Part shown: piece after piece, positions 23,976-33,912 of the stretch | How positions within the stretch are numbered: position 1 is the stretch's first letter | Layout: every line of letters begins with the position of its first letter | Virus record (IMG/VR): IMGVR_UViG_3300048433_000995 | Location: 1 to 35,521 of that record | Source: a virus | Strand: one strand, 5' to 3' | Length of the DNA: 35,521 nucleotides | Translations under genes and position numbers: made by a program | Notes under the pieces: generated by a model | Told to the model about the DNA's origin: nothing | Database searches by the model: none | Seen by the model: the letters and a program-made list of their open reading frames with translations, nothing else

Positions 23976-24212
23976 TTATCCTAATTTTATATTATCTATA
24001 ACTTCATTCCAATTATTTACCATAGCATCGTGCATTTCTTTTAGGCTATCGTGCTTATAAAATGCTTCGGCTGCTTCATTAGCTTGCTCTTCGCAAAACT
24101 TATTAACTCTAATGAAACTACTTTTTGTTTTAGGTGGCATTGGTGCATCAATCTCATCTAATAATGCAGGCAGCATTAGTGTCATTAAATATATTTTTAA
24201 TTCGGGTGTCAT
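23976..24212 (-). CDS. Small protein, unknown, coupled to DnaA-like gene
   Basis: This 78-residue helical protein has a hydrophobic N-terminal stretch (LKIYLMTLMLPALLDEI, residues 5-21), too interrupted by charge to be a clear membrane segment. A charged part follows (NKFCEEQANEAAEAFYKHDS, residues 37-56). The start overlaps the stop of the DnaA-domain-IV-like gene by ATGA, so the two are probably made together and could interact. I do not recognise the family. Confidence 0.6.
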   Translation of the reverse strand: MTPELKIYLMTLMLPALLDEIDAPMPPKTKSSFIRVNKFCEEQANEAAEAFYKHDSLKEMHDAMVNNWNEVIDNIKLG

Positions 24213-24631
24213 AATGCAAATTGTCTTTTTCTAAGTAATTGTATTTCTTGTTTCAAGGAAACATTTTCTCTTTCTAAATTAGATACACATCTCACAAGCT
24301 CGCTATATGTTGCGTGTTCTATATCATTCGTATTCATATTCTTAATTATAAGTTCTTTAATAATAGTATATGTGCGATATAATTCTTTATCATAGATAAC
24401 TAAATCATCAAAGGTTCTTACGCTATGTATAACCGTTGAGTGGTCTTTATATAGTGTCCTGCCAATAGGTGCGTACCCATATCCTAAGTCTCTGAGTATT
24501 TTGAAATAAACCATTCTACCAAAAACATATTCTTGTTTTCGGCAATCATCTGTTATGTCTATTTTAAATGTGTTGTTAATTAATTTTATTAATTTTCTTT
24601 TTAATTGTGGGTCTATAATTGTTTTTCTCAT
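24209..24631 (-). CDS. Stand-alone DnaA domain IV-like DNA-binding protein
   Basis: The 140-residue protein carries the helix-turn-helix signature of the DnaA C-terminal domain. Residues 36-49 (VFGRMVYFKILRDL) correspond to the helix that opens domain IV, and YAPIGRTLYKDHSTVIHSVR (53-72) corresponds to the basic loop plus the DHTTVLHA-type recognition motif that reads DnaA boxes. There is no AAA+ ATPase domain. Instead, the last 30 residues (ELVRCVSNLERENVSLKQEI, then LLRKRQF) look like a short coiled coil, possibly for dimerization. It is the first gene after a terminator, so it starts its own transcription unit, although I see no clear promoter. It could be an origin-binding initiator, a competitor of host DnaA or a transcription regulator. 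Confidence 0.78.
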   Translation of the reverse strand: MRKTIIDPQLKRKLIKLINNTFKIDITDDCRKQEYVFGRMVYFKILRDLGYGYAPIGRTLYKDHSTVIHSVRTFDDLVIYDKELYRTYTIIKELIIKNMNTNDIEHATYSELVRCVSNLERENVSLKQEIQLLRKRQFAL

Positions 24632-24717
24632 ATGTTTTGGTAATTTTTTTATTGTTATTTAATTTAATTGATTTAATTTCGCACTATTCTTTGAATGGAT
24701 AGATTTTTTTCATTATC

Positions 24718-24750
24718 AAAAGCCCTCAATTGACCAAGAGGGCTTTTTTT
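24718..24750. terminator. Hairpin terminator closing the helicase operon
   Basis: A perfect 10-base-pair stem, AAAAGCCCTC (24718-24727) with GAGGGCTTTT (24738-24747), a 10-base loop, seven T on the plus strand and four T on the minus strand. The zinc-ribbon stop codon lies within its 3' flank (24749-24751). Both neighbouring genes are on the minus strand, so its main job is probably to end the primase-to-zinc-ribbon transcript. The remainder of the non-coding stretch (24632-24717) is AT-rich and shows no clear promoter. Confidence 0.85.
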
Positions 24751-24910
24751 ATGCCTCACGTTTTGCCTTGCATTCTTTACACAAGACCTCTGTGCTGTGT
24801 GTAGAGTCTAACACAAGGTCTCCTGACCTCAAGCAATCTACACAAAAGTTTTGACCATACTCCCAAAACTGTTTGTTTAGGGGATGATGACTGTCTGTTG
24901 TATTATTCAT
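24749..24910 (-). CDS. Small zinc-ribbon protein, 53 residues
   Basis: Translation of this stretch gives a 53-residue protein with CVDC at 23-26 and CKEC at 44-47, a four-Cys zinc ribbon with a 17-residue spacer. It begins 15 bases after the VRR-NUC gene, and its stop codon lies inside the terminator hairpin region (24718-24750), so it closes the operon neatly. It otherwise fills a gap of about 290 bases. The ribbon could bind DNA or a protein partner in the helicase/nuclease operon; the function is unknown. Confidence that it is a gene rests on the Cys pattern, the operon spacing and the terminator placement. Confidence 0.7.
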   Translation of the reverse strand: MNNTTDSHHPLNKQFWEYGQNFCVDCLRSGDLVLDSTHSTEVLCKECKAKREA

Positions 24911-24925
24911 ATTATTATTATTTAA

Positions 24926-25454: not shown

Positions 25455-26873
25455 CTACAAAGTTAGCAAATCTTTCTTAAAGTGTTTGGTGGTATAGTCT
25501 TTTTTATTAGATACAGCCTTATATATCTTATCTTCTATACCTTTCTCGGCAAATATCCAATACACATCACTCTCTAATCTTTCTTTAGTTGTCATCCTAT
25601 CCCTGCTCTGCCAATAGCTTGTTGCACTATAATCAATATTGTAGTATACCAATGCCTCGGCTTTACGAAGACTAATACCCTCTCTACCTGATTGAATCTG
25701 TAGGGCTATGGTTTTAGACGTTGTATTGAACTCATCCAGCTCTGTACATAGATTGTCTCCATAGACCTCTTTTAGGGCGTTATACTCCTCTTTAAACTTA
25801 TAGAAGATACCAACCTTACTATCGCCAAAGTTATCGTGTATAAACCTGGCTTTACTCAAATCAAGTATCTTTGAGTTACCTGATTCAAACTTAACCGTAC
25901 CTGAGTATATCTGATGCAACTTAGTCATTAGCTTTACACTAGTATCGCCAAGTATTACTTCATCCTTTCCTTCAACCACTAAATCCTTCTTCAGTTTCTT
26001 AGCTATGTTATATGTGATGTCATCCATCTTTACATACAGCTTATGTTCCCGGGTATCAACCTTAAAACCTGCATCCTTCTGAGAGTAACTAATCGTATAT
26101 GCTTTCATCATATCAATGATGCTCTGCTTACCATTTGAATAATCTCTGATACGAAGACCATTGATTTTCTTTTCAGTAACCGTTACATAATCATCACAGA
26201 ACCTATAGAAGTTCTTGTACTGCTTGAATGGATTATTTGGTATACCATATACCTGATGATACATCTGACTGAATGATTCAGGAGTTGGTGTGCCTGACAT
26301 AAGTATAACATAAGGATTATTCTTAGCTATCAACTCACGCACCTGCTTAGCACGTTTGCTTGGCTTAGGGAACGCACCCATACTGTGTGCCTCGTCACAT
26401 ACAATCAAGTCCCACATATCTTGTGGTAGCTTGTGGATGCTTTCGTAGTTCATAACCACTAGGTTATACTTAGGGTTGAGCATTGCGTAGTCAGACTCGA
26501 TAGTGCTAATTGCCTTCTTCTTAGTTAAGAAGAGTACATTCCCTGCACCAATCTCATCAGCAATACCAAGACTTGTTAAGGTCTTGCCTGTGCGAACTTC
26601 CATAGCTAAATACAAAAAACGTTTAGCCTTAAGAACCCCCACCCCCTTAGAGATGATAGTTCTCTGATAGTCTCTGAACTTAAAACTTGATTTAGTCATA
26701 TCCTTGTTTAACTTTATTTCAATTAACTTAAACAAAGGTCTCTGTGAATGTACAATCTTATGTCTATTCATTAGTCTAGCAAACAAAGAATCCTTATCCT
26801 CCGAATCTCCGTAGACTTCAGAGGATAAGATTCTTTTACCTTTTTGTGCTGTTACTTGATATAATCCTTTCAT
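25455..26873 (-). CDS. SNF2-type SF2 DNA helicase/translocase
   Basis: The 472-residue protein has both RecA-like lobes of an SF2 ATPase. After a short N-terminal region come FRDYQ (66-70, Q-motif-like), the Walker A variant MEVRTGKT (91-98), a VVMNYES strand, the Walker B VCDEAH (158-163), SGTPT (193-197, motif III) and a C-terminal lobe ending in QSRDR (422-426, motif VI with the arginine finger). The spacing and the YWQSRDR context are those of compact phage SNF2-like helicases, also seen in crAss-like phages. It is coupled by ATGA to the primase-helicase gene, so it probably acts in replication, fork remodelling or recombination. Confidence 0.9.
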   Translation of the reverse strand: MKGLYQVTAQKGKRILSSEVYGDSEDKDSLFARLMNRHKIVHSQRPLFKLIEIKLNKDMTKSSFKFRDYQRTIISKGVGVLKAKRFLYLAMEVRTGKTLTSLGIADEIGAGNVLFLTKKKAISTIESDYAMLNPKYNLVVMNYESIHKLPQDMWDLIVCDEAHSMGAFPKPSKRAKQVRELIAKNNPYVILMSGTPTPESFSQMYHQVYGIPNNPFKQYKNFYRFCDDYVTVTEKKINGLRIRDYSNGKQSIIDMMKAYTISYSQKDAGFKVDTREHKLYVKMDDITYNIAKKLKKDLVVEGKDEVILGDTSVKLMTKLHQIYSGTVKFESGNSKILDLSKARFIHDNFGDSKVGIFYKFKEEYNALKEVYGDNLCTELDEFNTTSKTIALQIQSGREGISLRKAEALVYYNIDYSATSYWQSRDRMTTKERLESDVYWIFAEKGIEDKIYKAVSNKKDYTTKHFKKDLLTL

Positions 26874-29254
26874 AACTTAATCATATACCATTTACCCATC
26901 ACATCTTTTCCTTCCTGCACATCTTTCCCCGTTAGGTATTTAGCATATGCTTTTACATATTTATTAAACTTAACACGACTTAACTTTATACTACCTGTCT
27001 TTCCGTAGTCAGGATAGTCATCACAAAAATCAATATATAGTTTATTTAGGTGTATGGTTTCTTCTACAGGTAGTAATGGATTCTTCTCTCCTGTTTTTAT
27101 ACCACACCACTCTACAAAGTCTTCTGATGTTTCTAAAACAAATGATTTGTATTTACCATTCACAAGTTCACTCTCAATAAGACCTGTTCTCATATAACTA
27201 CTCAGGCAGTTAACCATATAGCTATCAAACAAACACCACTCATCTGAATCCCAATCGTTAAACAGATGTTTCTTAAACTCATCAAATGGTGTGTACTGCT
27301 TACTATAATGTGCGTGTAATTCAATCTCAAACTTACGTCTTGCAAATGAATTACCTGTACCTCGTATTGCGTAGTTAGTTGTGATTGCTACCTTCGGTGA
27401 ACGAGTATATGGTATCTTGATTGCATCCTTGTTTTTCTTCTCTAATGTAAGACCCTCCGTAATAACACTAAACAATCTCTCAAAGTCAAAGTTACGCTTA
27501 ACATCATCAAAGCATAATAGTTGTGTGTCAACCGATACGGTCTGATATGGGAATGATTTCTCAAAGTTAAATGCCTTACCATCAATCACTACTAGCTTCT
27601 TCATATGAGATAGTGCATTCATAAATATTCCCTTACCCGTTCCACCTTCAGGATTCTCACTAGCAACCTCATCATTCAATATGATTGCCGGGCAGGATGA
27701 TAAGTTCTTAAATCCGTGTAGCATAAAACCAATTGTTGATTCCATTGTATCAATTCTATCTTGGCTACCACCACATATCCTAGATATAAATGTTTTGTAA
27801 TCGCAATTATCATTACGACACATTCTAAATGTTCTATCTATAACGTGGTCTTTCCAAACATACCCATCTAAATCAACATATTGAATTGTCTCAATATCGT
27901 TTGTTGTAACCTTTACTGCACAATTATTATAATACAGAAATGATGTATCTTTTGTATCTCTAACAAAGTGAATATCAATAGTAGATAGTAATGTAAGGAA
28001 ATCTTCCTTAAATAAACTTGTCCTATCTGCGTAGTGATTATAAACCGATAAGTCATCAAGGTCTAAAAGATGATTAAGTATAAAGTCTTTTATTTCTTTA
28101 TCCGATGTGTGGTCTATCAGGTTTTCAATAACTCTAACAAATACAAAGTTAGCTGTACCTTCAGGCGAATACTTATAGAATCCATTATCCTCAAGAAACT
28201 GCTTAAATAATACAGGTATATTTCTAATTACACCCTTCTCACTCTTTGACCAAAACTTAACATTTGCACCCTCATCATCTACACGCTTAATAACTGATTC
28301 TACATCACATTCAGGATATGATTTATTATTACTATCCAACTCCTCAATAATCTCTTTTTTGGTTGCTCCATTCCTAACCTTTAATCTAACTATATTAACA
28401 GCCGACTCATCCTCATAGAATTTTGTTCTAAACTTAGCAGTATGGTTATATGCATTCTCAATTGTAGCTTGTATCTCTTTTAAATTAAAGTCTTCCTGCT
28501 CATATTGATTCAAAACATATGCTGCTAATGACTTATTAATACCATACTCATTAAAAGCCATTGCTAGTGTGTATGCGTTTTGGTTTCGCATACCCTCGTG
28601 CATTGGAAACTTTTTCTCCCACCACTTAACAAGTATCTCTACAATCTTATTCTCATCTGTAATTGGTAGTGTTGCTATGTTAGATAACACATCTACCTCT
28701 ACATATTCCTTCTCCTTTATTTTATCATACACTTCAGAGTTCTCGTTGATATGAATTAGATTATCCCAAGACTCATAACATACTCTACTTATATTCTTTG
28801 ATGTCTTATCAAAATATGGTGAATCAAAATACTCCTCAAGCGAATTAAAATAGTTAACGTGTTTGTCTATATCAGCAGGTATCTTAATCAATACCTTTAG
28901 ACCATTACCTGATGGAGATATAAATACCGAATAGACATACTTGTCTTTAGCTATCTTATCTTTATGCTCCTTCATTATGCTTTTCTTCTCATAATCATCG
29001 AAGTCTAAACATATAATACCACTATGCTCTAGTATTGACTTATCGTTTCTTTTATTGAATGTTCCACTAAAACATATAGCAGGTAGCTGTTGCTTTAGTT
29101 CTGCTCTTTTATTCTTATCCTTCTCAGACCTTATAGACTTTACGAGTTCCTTACTCTTACCATCCTTGATTCTATCAAGTATAACACCAATAGGAAGATG
29201 AAATGGTGCTTGGGTTTCTTTTATATTTTTAAAGATTGTGACGTTGTTTGACAT
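26870..29254 (-). CDS. Primase-SF3 helicase fusion (BT4734/VirE-N-like plus D5-like helicase)
   Basis: This 794-residue replication protein has an N-terminal domain like the BT4734/VirE N-terminal primase-polymerase-related fold: ICLDFDDYE (81-89), FISPSGNGLKVLIKI (111-125), SRVCYESWD (156-164). A helical linker of PriCT type follows (about 218-285). The C-terminal part is an SF3 helicase with Walker A PEGGTGKG (535-542), Walker B LLCFDD (579-584), motif C KVAITTNY (621-628) and the arginine-finger region ARRKFE (638-643). It should prime and unwind the phage origin. No polymerase gene accompanies it here. A 202-base non-coding stretch with repeats lies just upstream of its start. Confidence 0.88.
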   Translation of the reverse strand: MSNNVTIFKNIKETQAPFHLPIGVILDRIKDGKSKELVKSIRSEKDKNKRAELKQQLPAICFSGTFNKRNDKSILEHSGIICLDFDDYEKKSIMKEHKDKIAKDKYVYSVFISPSGNGLKVLIKIPADIDKHVNYFNSLEEYFDSPYFDKTSKNISRVCYESWDNLIHINENSEVYDKIKEKEYVEVDVLSNIATLPITDENKIVEILVKWWEKKFPMHEGMRNQNAYTLAMAFNEYGINKSLAAYVLNQYEQEDFNLKEIQATIENAYNHTAKFRTKFYEDESAVNIVRLKVRNGATKKEIIEELDSNNKSYPECDVESVIKRVDDEGANVKFWSKSEKGVIRNIPVLFKQFLEDNGFYKYSPEGTANFVFVRVIENLIDHTSDKEIKDFILNHLLDLDDLSVYNHYADRTSLFKEDFLTLLSTIDIHFVRDTKDTSFLYYNNCAVKVTTNDIETIQYVDLDGYVWKDHVIDRTFRMCRNDNCDYKTFISRICGGSQDRIDTMESTIGFMLHGFKNLSSCPAIILNDEVASENPEGGTGKGIFMNALSHMKKLVVIDGKAFNFEKSFPYQTVSVDTQLLCFDDVKRNFDFERLFSVITEGLTLEKKNKDAIKIPYTRSPKVAITTNYAIRGTGNSFARRKFEIELHAHYSKQYTPFDEFKKHLFNDWDSDEWCLFDSYMVNCLSSYMRTGLIESELVNGKYKSFVLETSEDFVEWCGIKTGEKNPLLPVEETIHLNKLYIDFCDDYPDYGKTGSIKLSRVKFNKYVKAYAKYLTGKDVQEGKDVMGKWYMIKL

Positions 29255-29404
29255 AAATTGATTGTTTTCTGACGTTTAAATTGTTGATTATCAATGACTC
29301 TGACCTGTTGACCACTTTTACTAAGTAAATTTAGAATAAAAAATATTATATATATATAGTAGTAGTAGTAGTATAGGGATTTTTAAGTTGGTCAGCATAA
29401 AGAG
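29255..29404. other. Repeat-bearing intergenic region, candidate replication origin
   Basis: This non-coding stretch between the primase-helicase start and the SSB-like terminator holds (TA)n at 29347-29356 and five perfect TAG triplets at 29357-29371, then TATAGGG. TGACC occurs twice in direct order (29301-29305, 29309-29313) and once inverted (29390-29394). No TAnnTTTG box is found for the downstream primase gene. The order TGACC site, GGG, TAG triplets, TA tract resembles the box, GC cluster, DnaA-trio and unwinding-region layout of bacterial oriC. An origin role is inference. Confidence 0.45.
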
Positions 29405-29433
29405 CAAATAAAAGGGAGTCGTATAACTCCCTT
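29405..29433 (-). terminator. Intrinsic terminator after the SSB-like gene
   Basis: On the minus strand, AAGGGAGT (29433-29426) pairs with ACTCCCTT (29419-29412), an 8-base-pair stem with a 6-base loop followed by TTATTTG. It lies 23 bases after the SSB-like stop codon. Confidence 0.85.
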
Positions 29434-29456
29434 ATTATCTGCAACTTAGACTCTAA

Positions 29457-29729
29457 TTAGAATGGCAGTTCATCGCTTTTTTCGCTGACCACTTCCATCA
29501 CATCCTTCTTTTCGCCCTTTGGTTTAGGTTGCCAAGTATCAAGCTGGCAGTAATATTTACCACCTTTACTCTGCTTGATGTCTAGGTTAACCCATCCATT
29601 CTTTTGGTTTGCTTGAAGAAATGCAATTGCCTCTTCTACTTTAATTGATTGCGACCCTACTACAAATTCAGGTGCGTTTTCTTTTCTCTTGAAGATGAAT
29701 CCATCTGCAAAAATTGTCTCGTTTGACAT
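29457..29729 (-). CDS. Small single-strand DNA-binding-like protein with DELPF tail
   Basis: This 90-residue protein has a compact beta-predicted core (about 8-70, including GSQSIKVEEAIAFLQANQKN and YYCQLDTWQPKP), then a Lys/Glu-rich linker and an acidic end, SDELPF. An acidic tip ending in hydrophobic-Pro-Phe is the hallmark of bacterial and phage SSBs, where it recruits replication and repair enzymes. The core is shorter than a usual OB-fold SSB and the match is not clear by eye, so the call rests on the tail plus the position between the exonuclease/annealase pair and the primase-helicase. It is followed by a terminator. Confidence 0.6.
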   Translation of the reverse strand: MSNETIFADGFIFKRKENAPEFVVGSQSIKVEEAIAFLQANQKNGWVNLDIKQSKGGKYYCQLDTWQPKPKGEKKDVMEVVSEKSDELPF

Positions 29730-31115: not shown

Positions 31116-31497
31116 TTAACTTATTATTTAATTGTGTGTAACTTGACATCAAGGAATCCCTTGTTGCCTTTAATTGTTTAATTGTTTTTTCACTACCTTT
31201 ACCATTGACTTCATCTCGAATACTCTTCTCTACTTTGTCTAGCTTTGAACGATAGTTCGCCAAAGTTACTACATATACCCCATATCTCCAACCCTTTTCT
31301 TTAAAGGTATCAGACTCATAGTCTGTGAGTCTTTTGTAATATCTCTTACTTGTGTTTAGTAAATCAATCTCGTGTGTGTAGTCATCCTTAAGAATCTTTA
31401 CATCTAAAAGCATTACACACTGGTATCCGTTTTCAATCCTTTTTACTGATTTGTTGTCAGTAAATGCTTGGTCGAATATCTCTTCTAAACTGAACAT
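31096..31497 (-). CDS. Unknown protein ahead of annealing protein
   Basis: This 133-residue protein has a mixed alpha/beta N-terminal 80 residues and a C-terminal helical part (95-133), Lys/Ser/Asn-rich and probably coiled coil. There are no recognisable catalytic or metal motifs. It overlaps the DnaA-domain-IV-like gene by 13 bases and the annealing gene by 20 bases, so it belongs to the recombination operon. It might be a partner or loader for the annealing protein, but this is only positional inference. Confidence 0.6.
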   Translation of the reverse strand: MFSLEEIFDQAFTDNKSVKRIENGYQCVMLLDVKILKDDYTHEIDLLNTSKRYYKRLTDYESDTFKEKGWRYGVYVVTLANYRSKLDKVEKSIRDEVNGKGSEKTIKQLKATRDSLMSSYTQLNNKLNEQTEL

Positions 31498-31772
31498 ATT
31501 TTTTCTTTGAAGTTTTTGTAATCCTTGTCTTTAGTCTCGGCAATCCTATCAATACCTTGTCTTACTGATGGATACTGAATGTGATATCCATTCTCTCCCA
31601 TCATTCTAATTATACTAGCTATTGAAAAATCGTTCTTGTGACAGGTCCAATAAAGCATCTGCCTTGCATCTACAATCTCACGTTCTTTTATCTTTGTAAA
31701 GAACACATCTTTTGATATACCAAACTCTCTTAGTATGACCTCTACGTAAAAATCAAATCTCTTTTTCTTCAT
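31485..31772 (-). CDS. Second DnaA domain IV-like helix-turn-helix protein
   Basis: The 95-residue protein has a C-terminal two-thirds patterned like DnaA domain IV. REIVDARQMLYW (31-42) corresponds to the RxxvxARQiamyL helix that opens domain IV, FSIASIIRMMGENGYHIQ (49-66) to the next helix and basic turn, and YPSVRQGIDRI (67-77) to the TTVLHGVRRI recognition helix. The Thr/Ser of the DnaA signature is only partly kept (PS instead of TT), so DNA specificity may differ from that of classic DnaA boxes. It lies in the annealase/exonuclease operon, about 7 kb from the other DnaA-like gene. Confidence 0.68.
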   Translation of the reverse strand: MKKKRFDFYVEVILREFGISKDVFFTKIKEREIVDARQMLYWTCHKNDFSIASIIRMMGENGYHIQYPSVRQGIDRIAETKDKDYKNFKEKICSV

Positions 31773-33234: not shown

Positions 33235-33442
33235 CTAAATCCTTTTCATTGTTAGTGTCAATAGCATCTTCAATCTCATTTTTGTATGCTACAACTTCTT
33301 TACATAAATCAAGTAGTTCTTCTAAGGCATCTACCTCGTACTGACTACCTAAATCATTAATCTCTCCATCTTGGATTGCATCTAGGCAATCTTGTAAATC
33401 TCGTGCAGTATTTTCAAACCTGCAATAACTCATATTACTCAT
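33218..33442 (-). CDS. Small conserved phage protein (MSYCRFENT family)
   Basis: This 74-residue acidic protein begins MSNMSYCRFENTARDLQDCL, a start I recall from many uncharacterized phage proteins in marine and gut phages. The rest is helical and acidic. The first Met is kept as the start because it forms an ATGA overlap with the endolysin stop. The stop codon lies inside the inverted repeat (33204-33234) and next to the -33 element of the downstream promoter, so the two transcription units interlock. Confidence 0.72.
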   Translation of the reverse strand: MSNMSYCRFENTARDLQDCLDAIQDGEINDLGSQYEVDALEELLDLCKEVVAYKNEIEDAIDTNNEKDLDVIPY

Positions 33443-33912
33443 AATTGTTTTTTTATTTTGTTAAAATATTTAATTGTTGCTCTTTTTTTATGTCCTCTCG
33501 GACCTCCGTTCCATCGTCTTGATACTATCTCTGCGTATTCCATAAATGTTGTGTACTCACAGCACTCGTATTGCTCTGCTATGATGTTAAACATCTCAAT
33601 AGACTTGGCTCTACTATACCTATCCTCTAATGTATATACCAATGGTATATCATTCTTGCGTAGGATTCGGTTTACCTCTCTCACACATATAGGATGTATC
33701 TGTAGGCATCCAACTGCCTTACCTCTATCGCCAATGGCAGAGTCATTACCTCTGCTCTCAACGTAGATAATTGCGTTGATAAGCCTATCCCAATCAGACA
33801 AGGTGTCAACCTCGCCTACAGAGATGATAGTTCTCTCCGTTGTTAGATTGTGGTCGGCAGTCCATACCACCGACCCAATCATAAACATAAAAACAATAAA
33901 TCTACTAATCAT
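33439..33912 (-). CDS. Endolysin: lysozyme-like lytic transglycosylase with N-terminal signal/anchor
   Basis: The 157-residue protein has a hydrophobic N-terminal segment (FIVFMFMIGSVVWTA, 5-19) that could be a Sec signal with cleavage near WTA-D or a membrane anchor. The lysozyme-like domain follows: AIIYVESRGND (47-57) with catalytic Glu52, AVGCLQIHP (66-74) and SRRWNGGP (131-138). These are the ES, GxxQ and NGGP landmarks of SLT-type enzymes that cleave peptidoglycan. An export signal means it need not pass through a large holin hole. It is coupled by ATGA to a 28-residue membrane peptide upstream, which completes a likely lysis cassette. Confidence 0.85.
   Translation of the reverse strand: MISRFIVFMFMIGSVVWTADHNLTTERTIISVGEVDTLSDWDRLINAIIYVESRGNDSAIGDRGKAVGCLQIHPICVREVNRILRKNDIPLVYTLEDRYSRAKSIEMFNIIAEQYECCEYTTFMEYAEIVSRRWNGGPRGHKKRATIKYFNKIKKQL

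Follow-up and report, generated by a model that had tools for sequence, protein, structure and literature searches.

The gap between the SSB-like and primase-helicase genes

The window, which is the whole 35,521-base phage fragment analysed here, contains a non-coding gap (29255-29456) between two minus-strand genes. One of these encodes a primase-helicase (26870..29254), the proposed initiator, with a BT4734-like N domain, a DUF5906/SF3-type helicase, a C-terminal winged-helix-like domain, and family matches to PF08800 and PF19263. The other encodes a small SSB-like protein (29457..29729). The sequence-only reading had placed its element between SSB and primase genes, which holds on the primase-helicase side, but the 'SSB' matched none of the family models and takes its name from an acidic DELPF-type C-terminal tail only. 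Two DnaA-domain-IV-like proteins are also encoded on the minus strand: protein A (24209..24631), in which the KDHSTVIH recognition motif is retained, and protein B (31485..31772). Elsewhere in the window, the gap before the protein A gene (24632-24925) holds (TAT)4 at 24910 as well as a short minus-strand open reading frame encoding CxxC...CxxC, and a lytic transglycosylase-like gene was recognised, by eye only, at 33439-33912 (minus strand).

Read along the primase (minus) strand, the gap begins downstream of the SSB-like gene with an intrinsic-terminator-like hairpin, AAGGGAG..CTCCCTT and then TTTATTTG (29412..29433). An inverted iteron copy, TGACC on this strand and GGTCA on the plus strand (29390..29394), forms the left flank of the core and is followed by a GC cluster, CCC (GGG on the plus strand; 29376..29378). 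The putative unwinding element (29326..29375) combines a TA tract, triplets and a T-run, and is the 50 bp of lowest stability in the window. Its triplet block is (CTA)5 on the primase strand, or TAGTAGTAGTAGTAG = (TAG)5 on the plus strand (29357..29371), beside (TA)6 at 29347-29358. This is the sole (TAG)5 in the whole record. At 17 nt it is also the window's longest trinucleotide run; 100 sequences simulated with a first-order Markov model gave a maximum of 16 and a mean of 10.9.

On the right-hand side of the core lies a direct iteron pair, GGTCA-ACA-GGTCA (minus strand, 29301..29313, with its members at 29309-29313 and 29301-29305), which is the only such pair in the record, and an additional GTCA site at 29295-29298. 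It is followed on the minus strand by a site resembling the IHF consensus (AATCAACAATTTA, consensus WATCARNNNNTTR; 29277..29289), which overlaps TGATAATCA at 29285-29293, and by a further direct iteron core (ACGTCA; GTCA) at 29270..29273, ahead of the primase start. The layout first noted, with (TAG)5, TA tract, GGG and GGTCA/TGACC in non-coding DNA, is thus real, and each of these parts lies where it had been placed. The GGTCA iteron pair, the extra GTCA sites, the IHF-consensus site and the terminator hairpin had been missed.

A common plan upstream of the primase-helicase gene

Relatives were gathered by primase-helicase protein, giving 80 viral contigs (61-92% identity) and the GenBank genome MW202828. 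After removal of near-duplicates, and with the window and MW202828 added, 63 non-redundant upstream regions were compared. The host is taken to be a member of the Bacteroidota, since the hosts of named phage relatives include Flavobacterium, Nonlabens, Polaribacter and Cellulophaga.

All 63 regions have one plan in common, read along the primase strand from the SSB-like stop codon to the primase start codon. The left half contains the stop codon, a terminator hairpin (present as a rightward terminator in 59 of the 63 regions), one or two inverted sites, CCC, and a TA- and pyrimidine-rich core that ends in a T-run. The right half contains a purine-rich stretch, two direct iterons, the block TGATAATCAGTAAGTTA, in most cases a further two or three direct iterons, and the primase start. 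The inverted sites left of the core are of the ATGTCGA type in relatives and TGACC in the window. The two direct iterons are about 9 bp apart and read ATCGACATNATCGACAT in most regions, GGTCA in the window clade, CGTCA in L004, and GTTAACAT in others. In three loci (L192 691-857, L005 and L006), the IHF-like block is swapped for GTATCACTCATTC.

Enrichment was judged against dinucleotide shuffles; the 63 regions are related by descent, and the figures therefore overstate the independent evidence. The IHF consensus occurs in 41 regions (1.6 expected). Tandem YTA on the primase strand was found in 24 (3.9 expected), compared with two for the opposite polarity, TAR (1.9 expected), and tandem CTA, (CTA)>=3, in 11 (0.14 expected), leaving 52 regions without it. 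In contrast, the Bacteroidota -7 promoter motif TAnnTTTG is depleted, with two regions against 8.8 expected. The 50 bp of lowest stability coincide with the core not only in the window but in 40 of the 59 loci tested.

The absence of the triplets from close relatives would have pointed to an ordinary microsatellite, yet they are retained in all five nearest relatives (L002-L006; 66-92% primase identity), which argues against a stray repeat. On the primase tree, tandem CTA is present in six of six members of the window's deep clade and is sporadic elsewhere, with six changes in total. The number of units varies (five in the window, six in L003, seven in L002), and the polarity of the block is reversed in L014. 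Judged from these sequences, the tandem-CTA motif is not a fixed part of the element, whereas the core as a whole is.

A second copy of the element

Second copies were sought over whole records by pattern scan, nucleotide profile and sequence model. Nearly all relatives with records longer than 50 kb have a second element beside the phage groEL gene; it usually lies 8-12 kb upstream and shares the orientation of the first. Examples include L084 (42621-42787), L145, L151, L155, L164, L192 and others; the window ends short of where its own second copy is expected. L002 (85% primase identity) comes from the 56-kb record G001, whose second copy spans 691-857; its iterons are CGTCA and its core contains CTACTATTATTATT. 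A weak match at 55735 of the same record (L147) has no iterons and was dropped. Four matches to the CCNTAYACTACTACTACTA pattern (L134, L135, L137 and L138) were in unrelated contexts. The sequence model found one copy only in the long records G035, G010, G020, G031 and G032, several of which may be fragments, and in G020 the pattern scan left a trace of a second copy at the contig end (L144).

Downstream of the second copy there is usually non-coding DNA or a tRNA-Arg gene (tct in L149, L150, L153, L155 and L162, where it adjoins the site), and the nearest open reading frame in the same direction is generally some hundreds of bases away. A hairpin able to stop incoming leftward transcription abuts the second copy in 14 of 25 cases. 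Two head-to-head copies of the element are present at the second site of L161 and L173. Among 29 second sites, tandem CTA occurs in five and tandem TAG in three (L149, L153 and L162), and triplet polarity is thus not conserved there. Within one phage, the iterons of the two sites are more similar than are those of different phages (permutation p=0.0005; Mantel 0.66, or 0.53 as a partial on the primase), a pattern that points to a binder acting in trans.

Candidate readers of the iterons

Three proteins were considered as the binder. Proteins A and B are relatives of Bac_DnaA_C (PF08299), both slightly under the curated Pfam cut-off (protein B: E=9.7e-6, 26.0 bits; cut-off 31.5). The predicted fold of protein B (pLDDT 95) is closest to the DnaA DNA-binding domains 3pvp, 1j1v and 8btg (TMq 0.76-0.81; 0.76-0.79 for 3pvp and 1j1v), so that its model can be assigned with confidence to the DnaA domain IV fold; the MW202828 protein row (L082) was left out of structure prediction. 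The presence of two DnaA-like proteins that lack an AAA+ domain had been noted from the sequence, and is borne out here: both consist of domain IV only, one of them confirmed by its predicted fold. By eye, protein A of the window is closest to that of L036, while the window's iterons and protein B go with L002 and L004, a mismatch that suggests exchange of gene A.

The primase-helicase model is of modest confidence (mean pLDDT 67). It has helix and wing elements at residues 700-794 and, in Foldseek searches, matches the SaPI5 primase-helicase (TMt ~0.4-0.5) and other PrimPol-helicases. In the SaPI Rep and the related Cch2, iterons are recognised by the C-terminal domain (PMC7581432).

Covariation was assessed with Mantel tests on distances between 17-nt iteron pairs. 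The site-1 pair correlates best with the primase C-terminus (r=0.68; 0.40 when the remainder of the primase is controlled for, 0.60 when protein B is), less with protein B (0.45; 0.19 given the primase C-terminus), and least with protein A (0.26), which was set aside as a reader of the iterons. Windows along the primase give a similar ranking. This order suggests, at the level of sequence covariation, that the primase-helicase is a SaPI-like self-recognising initiator. However, Mantel tests remove phylogeny incompletely, and Sak, which is no expected binder, also holds a partial correlation of 0.39. At the second site, which is distant from the primase gene, the primase still ranks first, with 0.62 for its C-terminus and likewise for its remainder, against 0.51 for protein A and 0.44 for protein B. 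Since proteins A and B also correlate there, the primase C-terminus as the reader is a lean rather than a proof.

Interpretation of the element

Overall, the gap at 29255-29456 is probably an iteron-type phage replication origin. Its sequence contains a terminator, inverted and direct iterons of 5-7 bp that flank an AT-rich core of about 60 bp, and, separating two groups of iterons, an IHF-like bend site. Additional support comes from the architecture conserved across the 63 regions, the two copies in nearly all records longer than 50 kb, the core of minimum duplex stability, the iterons matched within a phage at its two sites, the enriched IHF consensus and YTA triplets, the depleted -7 box, the structural match to the SaPI5 primase-helicase, and the covariation of the iterons with the primase C-terminus. 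At such an origin, the primase-helicase would bind the iterons, probably via its C-terminal winged-helix domain and possibly together with the DnaA-domain-IV-like proteins, and a host protein of the IHF/HU family would bend the right half of the gap. Torsional strain would then melt the TA/TAG/T-run stretch of the core, after which the SF3 helicase would load onto the exposed strand, followed by priming. The TAG triplets would serve as an easily melted, perhaps strand-specific, unwinding stretch rather than as a place for host DnaA to dock. Cumulative GC skew, proposed earlier as a check, shows no turn at the site and follows gene direction. As an origin marker it was discarded: in MW202828 its turn, at 43.9 kb, coincides with a switch in gene direction, and skew between the two sites did not differ from that downstream of them (p=0.64).

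The main rival to a replication origin is transcription control, in which the gap would be the promoter and operators of the primase operon, with iterons bound by DnaA-domain-IV-like transcription factors, repeated before a second early operon. The terminator found ahead of the element in nearly all regions means that the primase operon needs a promoter here, and the family consensus has an iteron TTGACA about 17 bp ahead of GATAAT. However, TTGACA is not kept (GGTCA, CGTCA and GTTAACA stand in its place in others), the usual -7 element is depleted, and the conserved block is a better match to the IHF consensus than to a -10 box. Moreover, the second copy is generally without a gene directly downstream and often abuts a hairpin, and an operator needs no 60-bp core of minimum stability. 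Transcription control in place of an origin is thus considered unlikely. Because a terminator precedes site 1, that site probably also holds the primase promoter, and part of the conservation could be regulatory; origin and promoter roles may both hold there. A functionless microsatellite of the ordinary kind, lying in AT-rich DNA, would account for the variable CTA copy number among close relatives and for the absence of tandem CTA from most of the family. It is highly improbable given that all members of the window clade keep the triplets across deep divergence, that the block sits between the CCC side and the T-run, and that (CTA)>=3 is so far in excess of expectation.

The sequence-only reading had proposed a DnaA-trio-like phage origin, on which host DnaA or the SF3 helicase would have to act. 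In a true DnaA-trio origin, assembly on the TAG strand as in Bacillus subtilis would be by host DnaA, or by the phage's DnaA-like proteins together with a partner. The order and strand polarity of the GC cluster, triplets and AT tract do agree with a real Bacillus origin, that of B. spizizenii (L099), which reads TTATCCACA-AATCCACA-AGCCC-TACTATTACTTCTACTA-T7; CCC, CTA triplets, T-run and AT tract match it. In addition, YTA is enriched in the trio polarity only, at the primase site, and single-stranded TAG repeats are a preferred target of DnaA proteins (PMC10316083). The published rule combines at least three 3'-NAN-5' trios (consensus GAT) with a DnaA box of no more than two mismatches to TTATCCACA, 0-16 bp away (PMC8287927). 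The window has the five TAG triplets at 29357-29371, but no such box within 16 bp of them; its best candidate has three mismatches and lies 20 bp away. Similarly, the canonical box followed by three YTA triplets occurs in none of the 63 regions, and no region has a perfect host DnaA box. Iterons of many relatives do resemble the DnaA box (TTATCGACA, TTATCAACA), but almost never with C at position 6. Across the family, left-hand iterons (ATGTCGA) are inverted relative to the Bacillus box, with the ACA end not facing the trios, and reversed boxes inactivate incC of B. subtilis (PMC6669920). The triplets themselves are reversed in L014 and in three second sites (L149, L153 and L162), and reversal of trio polarity blocked unwinding in H. 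pylori (PMC8235120). Finally, the phage DnaA-like proteins have domain IV only. What stands of the proposal is an origin-like element with triplets kept in the nearest relatives; the lack of a qualifying box, the inverted iterons and the presence of CTA in only a minority of regions do not fit, and a true DnaA-trio origin is very unlikely.

The element was therefore not filed as a DnaA-trio member, and a better reading of the TAG block is as one variant of an iteron origin's unwinding element. The element may still act in part as a DnaA-trio does, given the preference of DnaA proteins for single-stranded TAG repeats. A related, rather improbable arrangement is that the free-standing DnaA domain IV proteins read iterons derived from DnaA boxes, with the primase-helicase as the motor and the TAG/TTA triplets as a strand-specific landing strip. 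If true, the phage family would have split the bacterial initiator and rebuilt the bacterial oriC layout from phage parts, twice per genome. Among the papers searched, there was no phage DnaA-trio and no phage origin based on DnaA domain IV.

The iteron-origin reading maps a compact candidate origin for a widespread environmental phage family with genomes of ~60 kb, for which no studied member was found. For nearly all long records of this family, the reading predicts a pair of origins per genome. The element is also a natural test of the iteron reader, that is, of the primase-helicase C-terminus against the DnaA-like proteins, and of whether TAG triplets aid unwinding outside DnaA systems.

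Comparison with known systems

Origins of the SaPI and SCCmec type (SaPI5 Rep, Cch2) likewise have short iterons beside a primase-helicase gene and an AT-rich core. The phage primase-helicase is of the same D5/SF3 kind, with a predicted structure that matches the SaPI5 enzyme, and its C-terminal domain may read the iterons as it does in those systems. Unlike those origins, the phage element is located upstream of the gene and recurs 8-12 kb away; it also contains an IHF-like site and is accompanied by two DnaA-domain-IV proteins. These two proteins match the DnaA domain IV family (PF08299), protein B in fold as well, but in contrast to full DnaA they stand alone without AAA+, and the DHT motif of protein B is missing its Asp.

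Iteron plasmid and phage origins have direct iterons, an IHF bend site and an AT-rich unwinding element. The phage element differs in that its iterons lie on both sides of the core, and in that the likely initiator is a primase-helicase and not a winged-helix Rep alone. In the bacterial basal unwinding system (B. subtilis, H. pylori and the eTrio of T. maritima), the GC cluster, TAG triplets, T-run and AT tract are ordered and polarised as in the window. However, the window has no DnaA box, its iterons are oriented in the opposite direction, no AAA+ DnaA was found, and the triplets are not conserved across the phage family.
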